From the NCBI GenBank assembly GCA_039024915.1, contig JBCCPK010000006.1:248001-312000 (forward strand): 64,000 nt of DNA. The letters are read 5' to 3'. Both the position numbers and the translations under genes were made by a program. The DNA is from Pseudomonadota bacterium (GTDB lineage: Bacteria; Pseudomonadota; Alphaproteobacteria; Rhizobiales; MH13). Positions within the stretch are counted from its first letter, which is position 1, and every line of letters begins with the position of its first letter. The notes beneath the pieces are model-generated. The model was not told where the DNA came from. It searched no databases and saw only the letters and a list, made by a program, of their open reading frames with translations. This document shows positions 55,987 to 64,000 of the stretch, in pieces.

Positions 55987-57063
55987 TCAGGCGACTTTGC
56001 GCAGGCGGTTGGCAAGCAGGAAGGGTGCACCGGAAGCAAACACTTCCAGGTAGCGCCGATCCTGAAAGTTGCCGTTGAGGCTGACCCGAGGCAAACCGAA
56101 CAGGCTGTCTCGATGTTCGCGATAGATCATGCCCTTGCGCGTGGTCACGGCGCTTTCGAAGCCCGCCTGCTGCGCGAGTGCAAAGTCTCGTGGTCCGGCA
56201 GAACCAGAATCACCATAAGGGAAAGCAAAATGCTTTGGTCGTGCACCGAGGGCGCCTTCCAACCAGTCAGCTCCACCGGACATCTCAGCTAGCGCGTCGT
56301 CTGGCGATAAAGCCGCAATAGCCCTGTGGGACATGGTGTGCGCGCCAATGGAGATCAGCGGATGCGCATGCAACTGTTTGAGACCTGGTTCGTCAACAAT
56401 CAGCTGGCGGCACAGGTCGAACATATCGAAGCCCTGATCAGCGCACATTTCGCGCACAAGGCTGCGCTGATGGTCCTGATCCACTGCACGCAGATGCCAG
56501 TACAGCTCAAGATAGAATGACAGCTTTTCCTCGGAGGTACGCGTTTGCTGCGGTCCCTTCTCGGGCACATGCGGGAAGAGCAAGCTCTCGGTCCGCCGAA
56601 TGATCTGTTCAATCGCGACCCACCATAACTCGCCACGACCTTGCGGATAGTCGGACGGCATGTAGATCATCGCGGGAGCGTTGTGGGCTTCAAGGACAGG
56701 GAGCGCGTGCTGCTGATTATCAATATAGCCATCATCGAACGTAATGGCGGCTACCCGGCCCTTCCGAAGGCTGGTCGAGCGAACCGCATCAATCATCTCA
56801 TCGAAGCTGACGATTGAGAGGCCAGATAACTTGAGGGCTTTTAGTGCCTCATCGAGGAACTCCGGTGTTATCTCCAGCAGACCATTGGGGTCGAACTCCG
56901 GATACGCTCCAAGCGCGTCGATCCGCTCCGCAGTAGGCCGCACGCGGTGAAGGGTCACGATCATGCCCAGGCCTTCGGAGAACGGACGCATCACCGTATG
57001 AACCTTAAGCGTGTGCAGGGTTTTCAGACCACCCTGCATCAGCTTGATACGCGCTGAAGTCAT
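55987..57063 (-). CDS. Polysaccharide deacetylase (NodB-like, CE4)
   Basis: 358-residue CE4 family protein predicted to remove N- or O-acetyl groups from a polysaccharide. NodB motifs: TFDDGY (motif 1, metal Asp), HTMSH (motif 2, metal His residues) and FAFPYG (motif 3). A long helical insertion of about 100 residues lies between motifs 1 and 2. No signal peptide is evident. It opens the exopolysaccharide locus and is divergent from the acyltransferase gene, so it may trim the same polymer or its precursor. Confidence 0.88.
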   Translation of the reverse strand: MTSARIKLMQGGLKTLHTLKVHTVMRPFSEGLGMIVTLHRVRPTAERIDALGAYPEFDPNGLLEITPEFLDEALKALKLSGLSIVSFDEMIDAVRSTSLRKGRVAAITFDDGYIDNQQHALPVLEAHNAPAMIYMPSDYPQGRGELWWVAIEQIIRRTESLLFPHVPEKGPQQTRTSEEKLSFYLELYWHLRAVDQDHQRSLVREMCADQGFDMFDLCRQLIVDEPGLKQLHAHPLISIGAHTMSHRAIAALSPDDALAEMSGGADWLEGALGARPKHFAFPYGDSGSAGPRDFALAQQAGFESAVTTRKGMIYREHRDSLFGLPRVSLNGNFQDRRYLEVFASGAPFLLANRLRKVA

Positions 57064-57192: not shown

Positions 57193-58458
57193 ATGTCGCT
57201 TCTCGCACCCGCCGCTGGCGCATTACAGCGTGCCGAAAGGTCGGCCATTGCGGACAAACCGCTAAGGGAAAACGTTCCAACGGAGCACCGTGCGCAAACC
57301 GCGGCGCGAACCATCGAGGTCTTCACCGATCTAAGTGACGCCAAAGAGGTGTGGCGCTCCTTTGAGGAGCATGCACACGGCTCAATTTATCAATCCTATG
57401 ATTGGTGCAAGACTTGGCTGGACTGCTTCGATGAACCAAACAACTTTCCGGTAATCGTGGTTGCCAAAATCGGTGCGTCCCCTGCGTTGCTTTTACCCCT
57501 TCACGCGCGGCAAACCCTGGCGGGCATCGTGCAAATCGAACCTATCGGTGGGCACCACGCTAACATCCGGATACCGCTAACCCACCGGCACCCCGACCTG
57601 CGAGATTCTATGATCGCCTGGGTGAAGGATGGTTTTGTCGATGATCTGACGAGACATCTGCGCCTTGCTTCAGCGGGCGACTTTCTTTCGCTTGGATGCA
57701 TGGCACAATCCTTCGGGGATACTGAGAATTTGCTGCTCGGCGGCGATGCGAGCCGCTGTAGCGACGCAGTCTTTGGTATCGGCCTGCCTGCAGATTTCGA
57801 CGCCTTTGCGCTCGCGCGGCGCGGCAAACCCTTCATGAAGAAACTGCGCAGCAAAATGCGCGCGCTGGAGACAATCGGTCCAATCCGTTTGGACAAGGCG
57901 GATACCGTCGACGATGTGGACGAGGCGCTTTCAACCTTCTTCGCCCAGAAGAAGCAGCGTTTTGACGCGCTGAAAATGTTCAACCGTTTCGATCATGCAA
58001 AGGACCGCAGTTTCTTGCGGGCACTAGGCGCTCAGAGTGTGAAAACCGGTAGTGGGTCGCTGGACGTTTATCGGCTCTTTGTAGGCGAAGAGGTAGCAGC
58101 CGTCTTCGCGCTCGGGCACTTTCAGGGGCACGCATCCGGCGCGGTCCATTCCATGTCATCGGCGCCGCACATCGCCGGGCGCAGCCCGGGCGACGTCATG
58201 CTGTACAATCTCATGAAGCGCCTTGCGGGAGAAGGTAGCGCGTTTTTTGACCTCGGTTTTGGAGATCACCGGTACAAACAATCATGGACCGATACGATCC
58301 CGCTCTACTCAATTGAACGGCGGATAACGGCACGCGGTTGGATCATTGGCTTCATAAACAGGGCACAATCCATCACTCGCAGCGCGTTGCTAAGCAATCC
58401 CCTCATCGCGCGTTTTGCGCGGCAAGCCCGCTTCATCATTGCGCGGCTGCAGGGCTGA
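57193..58458 (+). CDS. CelD/BcsL-type (GNAT-fold) acyltransferase
   Basis: 421-residue protein of the BioF2-like acetyltransferase family often called CelD or BcsL, found in exopolysaccharide and cellulose loci. The SIYQSYDWCKTWLDCF start of the domain and the C-terminal GDVMLYNLMKRLAGEGSAFFDLGFGDHRYKQSW segment (the FDLGFGDHRYKQSW part is diagnostic) are typical. It may acylate a sugar or a precursor of the polymer. Its last 23 bases overlap the chain-length gene on the other strand. Confidence 0.82.
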   Translation: MSLLAPAAGALQRAERSAIADKPLRENVPTEHRAQTAARTIEVFTDLSDAKEVWRSFEEHAHGSIYQSYDWCKTWLDCFDEPNNFPVIVVAKIGASPALLLPLHARQTLAGIVQIEPIGGHHANIRIPLTHRHPDLRDSMIAWVKDGFVDDLTRHLRLASAGDFLSLGCMAQSFGDTENLLLGGDASRCSDAVFGIGLPADFDAFALARRGKPFMKKLRSKMRALETIGPIRLDKADTVDDVDEALSTFFAQKKQRFDALKMFNRFDHAKDRSFLRALGAQSVKTGSGSLDVYRLFVGEEVAAVFALGHFQGHASGAVHSMSSAPHIAGRSPGDVMLYNLMKRLAGEGSAFFDLGFGDHRYKQSWTDTIPLYSIERRITARGWIIGFINRAQSITRSALLSNPLIARFARQARFIIARLQG

Positions 58459-60817
58459 CCGTAAAAGGTGATGGTGTCGGCTGCGGCATCTGAACCGCGA
58501 TCATACGATCTTCAGGTACGAGCGCTGAGAGTGTCTGAGCAAGCGCTGCGACCCGGTTGGCCCGACCGCCCAGCACCATGCAATCATTGATACGAGCACA
58601 CTCAAGTAACAGCTGTGCATCGCGCCCAGCATTGACGATGACGCTGTCATAGCTCGATGCAAAGGCCGAGAAAACCAGGTCCGCGGCGTCGTCCGCGATC
58701 ATGTCCCGATCAGCGAGCGTGAAGCCGCCCGGCACGATGTGCAGCGAGCTTTTGGGGTCTTTATGCAAGGCTGCATCAAAGGCGACAGAACCCGTAACGA
58801 GCTCCTGGAACCCCGGACCATTCGGACCCATGCCCAACGCGCGCAAGTCGCCGACACAATCGATCATCACTACCGATCGCCCAGCCTGCGCGGTCGCGCG
58901 TGCAAGCCGAAGGGCTATTTCACCTGCGGTGTGACTGGTGTCTGCTGCACCTACAGTGGTGCGAAGACCATCCTCAGCACCCAAACCAATCGTCCGAAGA
59001 TGTGAGAACAAACGCCGACAATCCGATGGGTCCGCAAGTGCATAGGTTGCGGGAACGGAGGCTGGCGGTCCGGGTGGCGTCTGAAGCTCAGATACAAGCG
59101 GACGAGCGATATCGGCTGACGCCGTATCCGGGTCGATCGTCATCGCGCTGGGTACGGCAGGCGCGGCGACGGGTTGAACCGGGCTCGACGGGCGGGTACG
59201 CCTTGCACCGGCGGCTGCGGCTGCGATACGCTGAGCGGTCCGGTCGGCTTCTGCTCGGGGCGCGGGGTCCTCGAGCGAATCTGATAGCTCCAGTTGGTTT
59301 GAAAATTGGAGCTCAGATACGTCGCGTGTTGGCGCCGGGCCTTCAAATTGGTTCGCACGAGGCGCCGGGGATACGGCAGATTCGTAGGGAGGCTGCTGCT
59401 CGTAAGCATCAACAGGGTCTTCGCGGACCGCACCGGACAAAATAGCGTGGCTGGTAACGCCGAGAAGGGCAAAAGCGAAGCTGCCAGCAAATGCGATCAT
59501 GATCATCGGCATCGTGCGCGGGAACACGGCCTCTCGCTCGATTTGAGCGGTCTGAATGACGCGAGCATTTGTTGGCAGAAGCGATGGCTCGTCGCGGGTG
59601 GCAGCCTCACGAAAACGCACGAGATAGCTTTGCAGCAAGTCGCGCTGGGCAGCGGCCTCACGCTCCAGCGCACGCAACTCAACTTCCGCGTCTGCAACGC
59701 GCGCGGCTTCCGCTGATAATTGCGCCAGCTGATCTTCCAGAGCCTGCGCCCGCGCCTCTGCGACTTGCGCTGCATTATCAAAACGCTGGGCGATCCGGCT
59801 AGCTTCGTCCCGGAGCTGAGTCCCCAGGTCTCCCGACTGAGCATTCAGTTCCCGGATCCGCGGATGTCCGGGCAACAGCGTGGCTGAGAGCTCAGCAATG
59901 TTTGAGCGAATTTGTGCCTGCTCCTCCTGCAGCCGCTCGGTCAGCGCGGTTGAGAACTCCTGTGGCAGCGCGATCTGTGTACCTTGCGATGCGATCAGTG
60001 AACGGATTTCCTGCGCGCGCGATCGCGCTTCGGACTGATCGGAACGCGCACGGGTTAGTTCACTGCTCGTCTCAGAAAGCTGCTGGGCAGAAAGGGTTGT
60101 GTTGTTCGGGCCCAGAAACAGTCCCGAACTCGACCGGAAACGCGCCACAGCCGCCTCGGCATCAGCAACCTGCTGGCGCAACTGGTTGATTTCCGTTTCG
60201 AGAAAGTCAGTTGCGGAGCGGGTCGTTGTCACCTGAGCCGCCCGTTGTGTCGCCTGATAGGTATCGATCAGAGTATTGATAATGCGTGCCGACAACTCGG
60301 GATCGGAACTCTCGTAAACGACAACCACAACGCGTGAGTCGGGTATGTTGTAGACGCTTAGCCCGTCATCGAACTCCTGATAGACCCGCTCAGCCTGGGA
60401 CAGACGCAAGGGGTCTTCCGAAAGGCCGAGTAGAACCATGACCGACTTGACCAGAGAGACCCCTTCCAGAACCGGATCGAACTCTTCCAAGTCGGCAAGC
60501 CCGAGCTGATCAATGACCTGCAACGCCACATCGCGCGAGCGCAGGACCTGCACTTCGCTGGCGATATCGCGTTCATCGAGCTGCTGAATATTCAGCGCAT
60601 CTTCGACCTCAGGACGCGTAAACGCGGTTTCCTGAGTTTCGATGAGCAACTGTGCTTCGGCCTCATATTGGGGCTCTGCAATCTGCGTAAACAGGTATGT
60701 AAGGCCGGTGACGATCGCCACGAACAGCAAAACCGCAAACTTGGCGGACCACAAACACGCCAACAGATAAGCGACGTTGATTTCTGCTGGTGGTTGATTG
60801 CTGTGGGGGGACGCCAA
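58436..60817 (-). CDS. Wzz/GumC-like chain-length protein with degenerate BY-kinase domain
   Basis: Inner-membrane co-polymerase controlling exopolysaccharide length and export. GGAG lies 7 bases before TTG 60817, so that start is preferred (793 residues); a TTG at 60838 lacks one. Order: Wzz domain with TM1 (about 26-46), long periplasmic coiled coil (205-400), TM2 (about 438-461), Pro/Ala-rich cytoplasmic linker (465-595), BY-kinase-like domain (600-775). In this last domain the Walker A lysine is lost (ADTSHTAGEIA), the Walker A' reads VVMIDCVGD, Walker B has Asn in place of Asp (SVIVNAG), and no C-terminal tyrosine cluster exists. It looks catalytically dead. Confidence 0.85.
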   Translation of the reverse strand: MASPHSNQPPAEINVAYLLACLWSAKFAVLLFVAIVTGLTYLFTQIAEPQYEAEAQLLIETQETAFTRPEVEDALNIQQLDERDIASEVQVLRSRDVALQVIDQLGLADLEEFDPVLEGVSLVKSVMVLLGLSEDPLRLSQAERVYQEFDDGLSVYNIPDSRVVVVVYESSDPELSARIINTLIDTYQATQRAAQVTTTRSATDFLETEINQLRQQVADAEAAVARFRSSSGLFLGPNNTTLSAQQLSETSSELTRARSDQSEARSRAQEIRSLIASQGTQIALPQEFSTALTERLQEEQAQIRSNIAELSATLLPGHPRIRELNAQSGDLGTQLRDEASRIAQRFDNAAQVAEARAQALEDQLAQLSAEAARVADAEVELRALEREAAAQRDLLQSYLVRFREAATRDEPSLLPTNARVIQTAQIEREAVFPRTMPMIMIAFAGSFAFALLGVTSHAILSGAVREDPVDAYEQQPPYESAVSPAPRANQFEGPAPTRDVSELQFSNQLELSDSLEDPAPRAEADRTAQRIAAAAAGARRTRPSSPVQPVAAPAVPSAMTIDPDTASADIARPLVSELQTPPGPPASVPATYALADPSDCRRLFSHLRTIGLGAEDGLRTTVGAADTSHTAGEIALRLARATAQAGRSVVMIDCVGDLRALGMGPNGPGFQELVTGSVAFDAALHKDPKSSLHIVPGGFTLADRDMIADDAADLVFSAFASSYDSVIVNAGRDAQLLLECARINDCMVLGGRANRVAALAQTLSALVPEDRMIAVQMPQPTPSPFTVSPAAAQ

Positions 60818-61120
60818 CGCTTTACTCCATAGGCTCAAGGGCCACGACTGCTGCCCGAACGGTAAGCAAGCATGGTAAGCAAGCCGTTAATTTGAGCGCC
60901 GCAGCTGCCAATCGCACGAGCCTTTGTCCGCCACAGTGGTGCACAAGACCCGCTCTTTTCGGCAGATCTATGTCGTCAGCCTGCCGTAACGTCCGCCTCC
61001 GCAGAAAACGGTTGATTAACCTTGATCGTTCACAAACGGGCGCAAATGCTCGTTAGGCGCGCCGCGTTGGACCAGACAGGTCAACACGGCTCGCGCGTCA
61101 ATCAGTAGGTTGGGTTCCCG
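60818..61120. other. Divergent region between chain-length and export genes
   Basis: 303 bases with no credible gene. They include the tandem 11-bp repeat at 60861-60884 and should hold the promoters of both divergent transcripts. TTGATTAACC near 61010 is the only other AT-rich motif. I see no terminator or strong hairpin. Confidence 0.45.
60861..60884. repeat. Tandem direct repeat upstream of the chain-length gene
   Basis: Two perfect copies of GGTAAGCAAGC (60861-60871 and 60874-60884) with period 13. They lie 44 bases upstream of the proposed TTG start of the Wzz-like gene. Candidate regulator binding site. Confidence 0.5.
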
Positions 61121-61723
61121 ATGATCCGGTTTGGTATTCGTGGTCTTGAAACGGTCCTTCGGGCGCGGCTGGCCCTCGCAAGGCTTGGTGTGCTTGCAGC
61201 TGCACTGGTCGTTGCCGGTTGCGCCACAGGTCCACGACCGGAAGCGTTCAACGCCTTGCTGGCTCAACCCTACATGCTCGATTCGGGCGACGCCCTGCGC
61301 ATAACGGTGTTCGAACAACCAAGCTTAAGCGAAACGTACACCGTTGATGTTGCCGGCATGATCTCCATGCCGCTGGTCGGCGAAATCCCAGCGCGCGGCC
61401 TGACAACAGATGAACTCGATCAATCAATTACGGCCGCTCTGCGTAACGGTTTCTTACGTGCACCCGACGTCAGTGTTGAAGTCTCAACATATCGCCCGGT
61501 CTTCGTCCTTGGCGAGGTCGGAGATGCCGGTCAGTTTCCTTACGTTGCTGGTATGACGGCGCGCAGTGCGATCGCAATTGCCGGCGGGTTTACACCGCGC
61601 GCATCGCGTAACGGCGTCAAAATCACACGGACAATCAATGGACGCGTGCACACCGGGCGCATTGGCCTTGATGAACCCATCAGACCAGCCGACGTCATCA
61701 CTGTTGGTGAACGTTGGCTGTGA
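61121..61723 (+). CDS. Polysaccharide export outer-membrane lipoprotein (OPX family)
   Basis: 200-residue outer-membrane export protein of the Wza/KpsD family in its short form. A lipobox VVAGC puts the lipidated residue at Cys34. The Poly_export domain starts with YMLDSGDALRITVFEQPSLS, and an SLBB-like part with VFVLGEVGDAGQFPYVAGMTA follows. Works with the Wzz/GumC-like protein to move polymer out. It overlaps the next gene by four bases (GTGA). Confidence 0.92.
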   Translation: MIRFGIRGLETVLRARLALARLGVLAAALVVAGCATGPRPEAFNALLAQPYMLDSGDALRITVFEQPSLSETYTVDVAGMISMPLVGEIPARGLTTDELDQSITAALRNGFLRAPDVSVEVSTYRPVFVLGEVGDAGQFPYVAGMTARSAIAIAGGFTPRASRNGVKITRTINGRVHTGRIGLDEPIRPADVITVGERWL

Positions 61724-62880
61724 GTGATGCATCACCTTCGCCCCCCAATGAAGAGCGCCCGCTGCGCGTACTGCTGATCACGCGGGCGCCCGTCGGTGGG
61801 CTATGGCGTCATATTCTCGACCTGACGGACGGCTTACTTGAACGAGGCTTTGAACTGGGAATCGTGGTCGATTCTCTGCGCGCAACGGACTATGTCCGCG
61901 AGACCCTCGAACGATTTGCGCCGCGGCTCTCGTTGGGCGTTCACCTTCTCGACATACCGCGACTTCCTGGTAGCAGCGACTTCAGCGGTATCCGCGCGTG
62001 CCGGAAGATCGTGCACGAGCTAAAACCCGACATCGTTCATGGTCATAGCGCTAAGGGTGGGCTCTATGCGCGAATGGGTGCCTGGCGACGGCCAGCCAAG
62101 GCGTTTTACACCCCACATGGTGGATCGCTGCACTACACGTGGGATGCCATGCCCGGCGCACTTTATCTGCTGGGAGAAAAGTTCCTGCTGCCACTGTGTG
62201 ACCAGTTTCTGTTTGAAAGCCGTTACAGTGAATTGGGATACGCTACCAAGATCGGCGCCCCGACAGGCCGGTCGCGGGTCATTTTTAACGGCCTTGGGCA
62301 AAAGGAGTTTGCCGGCAAACCGCTCACCCTGACCAACCCACAGTATGACTTCGCGTTCGTCGGGGAGATGCGCGCCATCAAGGGCGTTGATCTTCTTTTA
62401 CAAGCGCTGACGATCGTGCGATCGCCGGACGATCGCCCAGCCCGCGTACTGATGCTCGGTGATGGGCCGATGCTTGATCATTACAGGAGCCTTGCCGAAA
62501 GGCTCGGTGTCGATCACCAGGTAGATTTCGTCGGGCGGCGACCGGTTCGCGAGGCGTTCGAGGCAACCAACACGATTGTAGTTCCCTCACGGGCCGAGTC
62601 GTTGCCGTACATCGTCATGGAGGCCATTGCTGCGGGCAAGCGCGTCGTTGCGACCAATGTTGGCGGCATCGGGGAGATTTTCGGGCCGACCCGGACGGAA
62701 CTGATCGAACCTGAAAGCGCGTACGCTCTGGCCGAAGCGATGCGCGCTGATCTGCTGCCTTTAGACGAAGCAAGGCACAACGCGCTGCAGGCGCGATACG
62801 AGCACGTGGCAACGAACTTCCATGTCGACCGGATGGTCGACCAGATCGCACAAAGTTACCGGGCGTTAACGACCAGTTGA
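61720..62880 (+). CDS. GT4-family glycosyltransferase
   Basis: 386-residue glycosyltransferase with GT-B fold. GTG 61720 overlaps the upstream stop. The N-terminal part has RVLLITRAPVGGLWRHILDL and HGHSAKGGLYARMG; the C-terminal donor-site motif has ESLPYIVMEAIAAGKRVVATNVGGIGEI. GEMRAIKGVDLLLQAL is typical of family 4. Probably adds one sugar to the lipid-linked repeat unit of the exopolysaccharide; donor and linkage unknown. Confidence 0.88.
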   Translation: MSDASPSPPNEERPLRVLLITRAPVGGLWRHILDLTDGLLERGFELGIVVDSLRATDYVRETLERFAPRLSLGVHLLDIPRLPGSSDFSGIRACRKIVHELKPDIVHGHSAKGGLYARMGAWRRPAKAFYTPHGGSLHYTWDAMPGALYLLGEKFLLPLCDQFLFESRYSELGYATKIGAPTGRSRVIFNGLGQKEFAGKPLTLTNPQYDFAFVGEMRAIKGVDLLLQALTIVRSPDDRPARVLMLGDGPMLDHYRSLAERLGVDHQVDFVGRRPVREAFEATNTIVVPSRAESLPYIVMEAIAAGKRVVATNVGGIGEIFGPTRTELIEPESAYALAEAMRADLLPLDEARHNALQARYEHVATNFHVDRMVDQIAQSYRALTTS

Positions 62881-62980
62881 GCGATCGAAAACGGCTCGTT
62901 CACCAGTTCGCTTAAATCCACTGCAAAGATTTGGCTGCTAGGGCTAAACATCTCTCAGGGCCAAAGGGATTGTGGGTGAC

Positions 62981-64000
62981 ATGCTGCTGAGCTCCGGCCA
63001 GATTGTCCGCGAGGAATTGAAAGCTGCCAGTTTGGACGCTGCCGGAAACGGCGCTTCAGCGTCCAAGGCTTCGGCCATGGAAACGCTTTCAGACCGAGCA
63101 CGCGAGCTCGCAGCGACCCTTGAAGGAAAGTCCTTCTCTCCAGTCATCCTGGCCGGCATCGTCCGCATGGTCGAATGGTTTGTCATTCTGCTTGTGGGCT
63201 GTGCGCTTTACCTCGGATATCTGCAGGCCGAACTTGGCTTTTCGGGCGCATACGCTGCGATCATCGCCGGGATCGCGACCGCAAGCATTATCATCTTCCA
63301 GATTCTCGGTTTGTACACGCCCTACGGAATGCGGTCCGTTGGCTACCAGGGCTTGCGGCTTGTCGCAGGTTGGACAGCTCTGTTTGGTGCGATGCTCGCG
63401 GTCGGGTTCTTCTCCAATCTGGGTGATGATGTCAGCCGCTTGTGGGTCGGACTGTTTTTTTCCATCGGCCTGCTCGCCTTGATGGTTTTCCGCAGCGGAT
63501 TGATTGCGCTTGTCAGCCATTGGACCCAACAGGGCCGGTTGATGCGCCACGCCGCCATCGTCGGCAGTGGCGGAGATGCCGAACAGCTGATCCAAGCTCT
63601 TCGCGCTTCCTCGACAAGCGACCTGAACCTGCTGGGCTTCTTTGATGATCGCAGTGCCGATCGCAGTGACGAGACATGTGCGGGCCTGCCAAACCTGGGT
63701 TCAGTGAGCGATCTGGTTGCCTTCGCTCGCATCGCACCACTCGATTTGGTGATCGTGACTTTGCCGGTCACGGCGGAGAGCCGGGTGCTGAACATGGTGC
63801 GGAAACTGTGGGTCTTGCCGATTGACGTCAGGCTGTCCGCGCACACCACAAAGCTGCGCTTTCGGCCGCGCGCCTACAGCTACATCGGCAACGTGCCGTT
63901 TTTTGCCGTCTTCGATCGCCCCCTCGCCGATTGGGACCATGTCCTAAAGGCGCTGCTCGATCGCGTGATCGGCGCTATGATGCTTATCGCCCTAGCGCCC
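62981..64000 (+). CDS. Undecaprenyl-phosphate sugar-1-phosphate transferase (WcaJ/ExoY-like), partial
   Basis: Initiating transferase that puts the first sugar phosphate on undecaprenyl phosphate. The first 340 codons are in the window and the 3' end is cut off. A cytoplasmic N-terminus of about 55 residues precedes four membrane helices (about 62-80, 89-110, 126-146, 157-176), then a CoA-binding-like Rossmann region starting AAIVGSGGDAEQL (191-203). The sequence stops as the bacterial sugar transferase domain begins (LLDRVIGAMMLIALAP, 325-340), so the catalytic part is not seen. Start is uncertain: GTG 62972 is in frame and follows AAAGGGA closely. Confidence 0.85.
   Translation, partial: MLLSSGQIVREELKAASLDAAGNGASASKASAMETLSDRARELAATLEGKSFSPVILAGIVRMVEWFVILLVGCALYLGYLQAELGFSGAYAAIIAGIATASIIIFQILGLYTPYGMRSVGYQGLRLVAGWTALFGAMLAVGFFSNLGDDVSRLWVGLFFSIGLLALMVFRSGLIALVSHWTQQGRLMRHAAIVGSGGDAEQLIQALRASSTSDLNLLGFFDDRSADRSDETCAGLPNLGSVSDLVAFARIAPLDLVIVTLPVTAESRVLNMVRKLWVLPIDVRLSAHTTKLRFRPRAYSYIGNVPFFAVFDRPLADWDHVLKALLDRVIGAMMLIALAP

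Follow-up and report, generated by a model that had tools for sequence, protein, structure and literature searches.

The window analyzed here is a stretch of 64,000 nucleotides from contig C6 of a genome of the order Rhizobiales (GenBank assembly GCA_039024915.1, contig JBCCPK010000006.1, positions 248,001 to 312,000), and our subject is a gene on its minus strand encoding a polysaccharide co-polymerase of class 2 (PCP-2) fused to a domain that has the fold of a bacterial tyrosine (BY) kinase and lacks its catalytic motifs. The open reading frame (ORF) spans positions 58436–60838, starts with TTG and encodes 800 amino acids (aa). In the first-pass annotation the gene was placed at 58436–60817; the gene itself is real, but 60817 corresponds to the next in-frame TTG, and because the residues WSKALAS, encoded upstream of that start, are seen again in a same-genus relative (locus L044), the start at 60838 is favored. 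A sequencing or frame error in a single genome was excluded, since the same-genus relatives agree. The features of the gene are listed below with their evidence (pLDDT, predicted local distance difference test score; dN/dS, ratio of nonsynonymous to synonymous substitution rates).

58436..60838, minus strand: PCP-2-type co-polymerase fused to a BY pseudokinase, 800 aa (ORF, Pfam, NCBIfam)
59429..60790, minus strand: Wzz domain, residues 17–470, with predicted membrane helices at about 33–53 and 442–467 and periplasmic-type coiled coils between them (Pfam, full-length model)
59069..59416, minus strand: linker, residues 475–590, mostly pLDDT <50, fast-evolving (full-length model, dN/dS)
58469..59062, minus strand: BY-kinase-fold domain without catalytic motifs, residues 593–790 (fold model and structure searches)
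58916..58957, minus strand: former Walker A loop, residues 628–641, with Ala638 at the lysine position (alignment)
58847..58876, minus strand: Walker A' strand, residues 655–664, Asp660 retained (alignment)
58628..58651, minus strand: Walker B strand, residues 730–737, Asn736 replacing Asp (alignment)

The co-polymerase part was recognized by profile searches. Wzz was the only Pfam family above its cut-off (residues 19–112, 3.8e-11), with no kinase family among the matches, and the top NCBIfam match was TIGR01005 (exopolysaccharide transport; 2.2e-81, below its cut-off, best over residues 19–472). As in PCP-2 proteins, the Wzz domain is located between two predicted membrane helices and is accompanied by an extended coiled coil (Pfam, model).

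The C-terminal domain had been described in the first-pass annotation as keeping the BY-kinase layout and the Walker A' motif while having lost the Walker A lysine, the Walker B aspartate and the tyrosine tail, and all of these points were borne out for the window protein. Ala638, within TVGAADTSHTAGEIALRL, occupies the position equivalent to that of the P-loop lysine; no lysine occurs in residues 621–660, and the Walker A pattern GK[ST] is absent from the P-loop. The Walker A' motif VVMIDCVGD (residues 656–664) retains Asp660, and the Walker B strand reads SYDSVIVNAG, with Asn736 where an aspartate is expected. Past residue 590, tyrosine occurs at just two positions, 599 and 730, so that no C-terminal tyrosine cluster exists. 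Thus, as in known BY pseudokinases, the key catalytic residues and the tyrosine tail are missing, and only the Walker A' aspartate remains. The PCP-2 partner of such proteins would be supplied by fusion, judging from the Wzz match and the predicted helices and coiled coils. With the motifs gone and no tail, the usual ATP-dependent tyrosine autophosphorylation would be impossible for this domain.

We modeled the C-terminal 208 residues together with 39 relatives (pLDDT 89.9; predicted template modeling score, pTM, 0.87), and the model agrees with the expectation of a fold like that of CapB and Wzc. The 50 best rows of a Foldseek search against the PDB were all BY-kinase domains or whole Wzc-type proteins, headed by Wzc (3la6_E, E 3.4e-9), and VIA-align gave Z scores of 18.9–22.6 for the 19 BY-kinase entries listed, followed by MinD (16.1) and, below it, other ParA-type ATPases. 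The closest fold matches were Wzc, Etk, CapB, VpsO and BceF, and the domain is accordingly predicted, with high confidence, to adopt the BY-kinase fold. This kinship emerged from the fold search; a search of solved structures by sequence found no relative (best E 0.45). In the full-length model (pLDDT 77.4, pTM 0.40) most of residues 475–590 were of low confidence, and we therefore read this segment as a probably disordered linker between the second helix and the kinase-like domain.

The neighboring genes are relevant both to the definition of orthologs and to the likely product, and are as follows.

55987..57063, minus strand: polysaccharide deacetylase, Polysacc_deac_1 (Pfam, synteny)
57193..58458, plus strand: GNAT-type acyltransferase, Acetyltransf_6, convergent with the co-polymerase gene and overlapping it by 23 bases (ORF, Pfam)
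61121..61723, plus strand: outer-membrane polysaccharide export protein, Poly_export and SLBB, divergent (Pfam, synteny)
61714..62880, plus strand: family 4 glycosyltransferase, GT4 (Pfam, synteny)
62972..64000, plus strand: initiating phosphoglycosyl transferase, HfsE/WcaJ-like, continuing past the window end (Pfam, NCBIfam, synteny)
L039:12537–13868: Wzy-like gene after the initiating transferase (beyond the window)

Their conserved order is deacetylase, GNAT, co-polymerase, and then usually the divergent export protein, GT4, initiating transferase and Wzy. UppC is described as a Wza-type export protein and UppE as an initiating transferase (PMC12727192), while uppABCDEF of Agrobacterium is described as an incomplete Wzy-type cluster whose uppE is homologous to hfsE (PMC4018554). 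The transferase of the window matched the HfsE model at 2.7e-21, below its cut-off. In Bradyrhizobium ottawaense SG09, uppC is reported to lie apart from uppABDEF, in synteny with B. japonicum USDA 110 (PMC12727192); of our 34 Bradyrhizobium loci exceeding 11 kb, 5 had the export gene adjoining the co-polymerase gene, and in 29 it was missing there. It stood beside the co-polymerase gene in Afipia (8/8) and Rhodopseudomonas (1/1). By gene content, namely a uppC-like export gene together with a uppE-like transferase gene and the displaced uppC in Bradyrhizobium, the window locus is probably an upp (unipolar polysaccharide, UPP) cluster.

We searched 101 genomes of the order, 94 of which matched, and fetched 100 loci from among the matches listed. 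The first ortholog set consists of 74 loci from 74 different genomes, including that of the window, which share the gene neighborhood (the divergent export gene, or a deacetylase match, or three neighbors); for the other 20 of the 94 matched genomes, the loci were not fetched or were only paralogs, which limits the order-wide claim. The divergent export gene was missing in 9 of the first 72 neighborhood loci, some of them at contig ends, and L110 was counted through a single weak neighbor match. The co-polymerases of L060 and L062, missed by blastp and found by length, entered the terminal-residue counts and stand outside the tree and the motif table; L125, a wrong ORF, was left out of the tree and the motif table, yet is among the 27 paralogs of the C-terminal count. 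The remaining 72 orthologs were aligned: 3 were cut off, 5 had no C-terminal domain and 64 had one. The second set comprises the best 80 of a longer list of relatives obtained by a genome scan from a nine-row alignment, 78 of them with a complete 3' end; it represents mainly Bradyrhizobium, Afipia, Mesorhizobium, Tardiphaga, Nitratireductor and others, as well as Rhodopseudomonas and Nitrobacter, and includes many close relatives.

The P-loop motif was lost throughout. GK[ST] was found at the loop in 0/64 orthologs of the first set and 0/78 of the second, where the lysine was likewise absent, and both the P-loop glycine and lysine were missing in every aligned ortholog; at least three tyrosines in the last 25 residues were also found in 0/64 and 0/78. 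Loss of the lysine is therefore universal among the orthologs; the loss of the Walker B aspartate is not, since this residue is present in 19/64 and 59/78; in the genus of the window it is Asn. Among the paralogs with the domain, GK[ST] was observed in 18/24, the Walker A' aspartate in 24/24, the Walker B aspartate in 23/24 and a tyrosine-rich end in 13/24; two more paralogs were domainless. The Walker A' aspartate of the orthologs survives in 55/64 and 76/78 despite the loss of the P-loop. A shifted but functional Walker A, which the first-pass annotation had named as an observation that would overturn its proposal, was not found in the loop of any ortholog of either set. Candidates for such a shift, that is, GK[ST] past residue 450, occurred in 6/74 orthologs and 5/80 rows of the second set, none within the loop. 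Those of L060 and of four Tardiphaga or Bradyrhizobium rows come closest, preceding the strand leading into the loop, and L062, like L060, has no GK[ST] at the loop.

These counts, taken within the same neighborhood, indicate that the loss in the window protein is not local decay. A tree was built from just the co-polymerase part; in it, the 72 orthologs formed one side of a branch with a Shimodaira–Hasegawa-like approximate likelihood ratio (SH-aLRT) value of 100 (quick method, midpoint root). A single loss before the order diversified would be the simplest reading. In the wider class, 115 genomes were searched, 81 matched, and 20 loci from 17 genomes were fetched; 14 of the co-polymerases contained a clear EGK[ST], L246 contained a GKT out of context, and L239, L240, L251, L254 and L256 had no EGK[ST] (L251 being domainless and L256 cut off). 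L239, from a genome outside the order, was also the only one of these 20 loci with the gene order of the window.

We further estimated dN/dS from 21 close pairs, not all of which are independent (one locus was used twice). The values for the C-terminal domain ranged from 0.04 to 0.49 with a median of 0.12 (19/21 pairs computable), those for the co-polymerase part from 0.04 to 0.24 with a median of about 0.085 (20 pairs), and those for the linker from 0.08 to 1.25 with a median of 0.33 (17 pairs). The median for the C-terminal domain indicates purifying selection, and on this comparison of coding sequences selection maintains the pseudokinase domain even though its kinase function is gone. In addition, Asp660, Gly676, Asp694, Ser697 and Tyr730-Asp731 were invariant or nearly so in one of the alignments. 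The idea of a unique linker was rejected: the median distance from the second membrane helix to Walker A' was 137 residues (97–601) in orthologs versus 123.5 in paralogs (P = 0.03, uncorrected for kinship). Very long linkers were observed in L054 (1219 residues in total, with KASSK repeats) and L065 (1079 residues). The oligomerization motif EX2RX2R was not clear when one alignment was examined by eye, and we make no claim about it.

Proteins of this kind are already known. EcpK, a BY pseudokinase of Myxococcus xanthus, is reported to be required for exopolysaccharide and to bind the PCP-2 protein EpsV, and HfsB of Caulobacter, also without catalytic residues or tyrosine tail, to matter for the stability of HfsA (PMC12004946). 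Both pairs likewise join a BY-kinase fold lacking motifs and tail to a PCP-2 protein in a Wzx/Wzy pathway, and HfsAB is described as serving a polar adhesin (PMC12004946); compared by description only, EcpK and HfsB are separate proteins, whereas the window protein is fused through a long linker. Fused PCP-2/BY pseudokinases, cited in the same source after Cuthbertson et al., are SMc01795 of S. meliloti, Mlr8439 of Mesorhizobium, BCETI_6000729 of Brucella ceti and VV1_2305 of Vibrio (PMC12004946). These four, known to us from this citation, also combine the co-polymerase and the dead kinase in one polypeptide, and three of them belong to rhizobial relatives; a fused dead kinase in rhizobia is thus already in print. 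PssP2 of Rhizobium leguminosarum is another Wzc-like co-polymerase with a kinase-like fold and no Walker or tyrosine motifs, but it is described as a protein of 586 aa whose periplasmic part is shortened, encoded in the Pss-II region rather than in a neighborhood like that of the window (PMC4182512). CapB1 of S. aureus, a BY-kinase-fold protein reported inactive and likened by its authors to a pseudokinase, differs in coming from a Gram-positive bacterium and in forming a two-protein system, in which its partner CapB2 is active (PMC3795738). Wzc of E. coli, the canonical PCP-2a protein, has the same domain order and fold as the window protein (Z up to 22.6) but possesses a working P-loop and a tyrosine tail, neither of which is present here. 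What our analysis adds is the loss fixed across the order, the selection on the domain and an Ala-Ala C-terminus.

In the textbook view, the export of capsule-type polymers is switched by tyrosine phosphorylation of Wzc. We propose, with a probability of about 0.78, that the window protein is a PCP-2 co-polymerase in which the fused BY pseudokinase acts as a scaffold, and that it works, without tyrosine phosphorylation, in the Wzx/Wzy-type assembly of a surface adhesin. The adhesin would probably be UPP or a holdfast-like glue. The periplasmic part, of the Wzz/Wzc kind, would by family resemblance set chain growth and engage the neighboring export protein. The cytoplasmic domain, which appears to have lost its P-loop before the order diversified, would most likely hold or tune the co-polymerase ring by protein contacts; a single polypeptide would then be the equivalent of HfsA plus HfsB or EpsV plus EcpK. 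We infer the scaffold role from the precedent of EcpK and HfsB, and among the functions suggested in the first-pass annotation it is the best supported. One conserved locus in 74 sampled genomes, with the fold kept and the switch lost, would thus provide a natural test of non-phosphorylating roles of kinase domains.

Several observations weigh against this proposal or limit it. The probable assignment of the locus to upp was made by gene content and published gene arrangement. Six paralogs outside the neighborhood (L112, L121, L126, L127, L128 and L136; 6/24) also lack GK[ST], and pseudokinases are therefore not confined to loci of the window type. Moreover, five orthologs in the same neighborhood (L097, L100, L102, L103 and L108; 5/69 of those in the tree set with complete 3' ends) have no C-terminal domain, and no homolog of the missing domain was found around them in the fetched stretches, which indicates that the domain is not indispensable everywhere. 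Some of these may reflect a frameshift or an assembly error; this is least likely for L100 and L102, since the two agree. The domainless forms, for which three changes on the tree are needed, would also be expected if the domain were a decaying remnant without a job, on its way to the state already reached by a few lineages; we consider this improbable given the purifying selection seen in those close pairs for which dN/dS could be computed, the fold retained at high confidence and the (near-)invariant residues mentioned above.

A pure scaffold would also not need Asp660 or the often retained Walker B aspartate, and their frequencies in the two sets might instead point to a sensor that binds a nucleotide or other ligand through the Walker A' region. 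We give this reading very little weight, since the P-loop glycine and lysine are gone in all aligned orthologs and the Walker B aspartate has become Asn in the genus of the window. Regulation in trans by a separate active BY kinase is highly improbable as well. The same genome does encode an intact one: TIGR01007 had a single match above its cut-off, an 826-residue frame on contig C4 with EGKTT and a tyrosine-rich tail (YYYNRYKKYYTS). However, this protein is a complete PCP-kinase with its own co-polymerase part and is not near the window locus, and a profile search with TIGR01007 gave no match on contig C6 at E ≤ 1, so the separate kinase near the locus that had been considered earlier was not found. 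Because the window protein has no tyrosine tail, as is the case for the orthologs of both sets, and the lone intact kinase lies on another contig, our data do not support the idea that it depends on another kinase.

Apart from the scaffold proposal, the C-terminal residues of the orthologs may hint at a different form of control. An Ala-Ala end was found in 39/71 orthologs of the first set (L039–L138) and 71/78 of the second (L139–L218), compared with 0/27 paralogs and with 14/378 and 8/220 of the non-cluster ORFs of at least 220 aa in the respective loci; these counts are uncorrected for kinship, and on the tree the trait required 16 changes, against a mean of 23 and a minimum of 16 for shuffled data. 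The 39 orthologs encode this end by 20 codon and stop combinations, which argues for selection on the terminal residues, although the deacetylase also ends in AA (14/56) or VA (10/56) in the first set (1/36 and 4/36, respectively, in the second). The domainless orthologs L100 and L102 nonetheless end in KMAA. The window protein ends in SPAAAQ and its close relatives in PA, with no Ala-Ala. A review table pairs CtrA (DPNEQVNAA) with ClpX and LpxC (LAFKAPSAVLA) with FtsH, and FtsH degradation of an ssrA-tagged inner-membrane protein is cited there (PMC8138137). By analogy, control by tyrosine phosphorylation might have been replaced by an Ala-Ala degron read by ClpXP or FtsH, which would remove the co-polymerase on a cue from the cell cycle or surface contact, the pseudokinase scaffold hiding or showing the degron. 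This idea is speculative and we regard it as rather unlikely; under it, the window protein and its close relatives would be an exception or a weaker form, and, if it were true, proteolysis would have taken the place of phosphorylation as the switch for a polar adhesin. Judged on titles and abstract openings in part of the matching literature, no published account of the Ala-Ala end or of the window-type ortholog group was found. Conserved C-terminal ends were also observed in other proteins of the loci L039–L118, where the export protein ended in WF, FF or LF in 54/66 cases and the initiating transferase in AY in 53/59.

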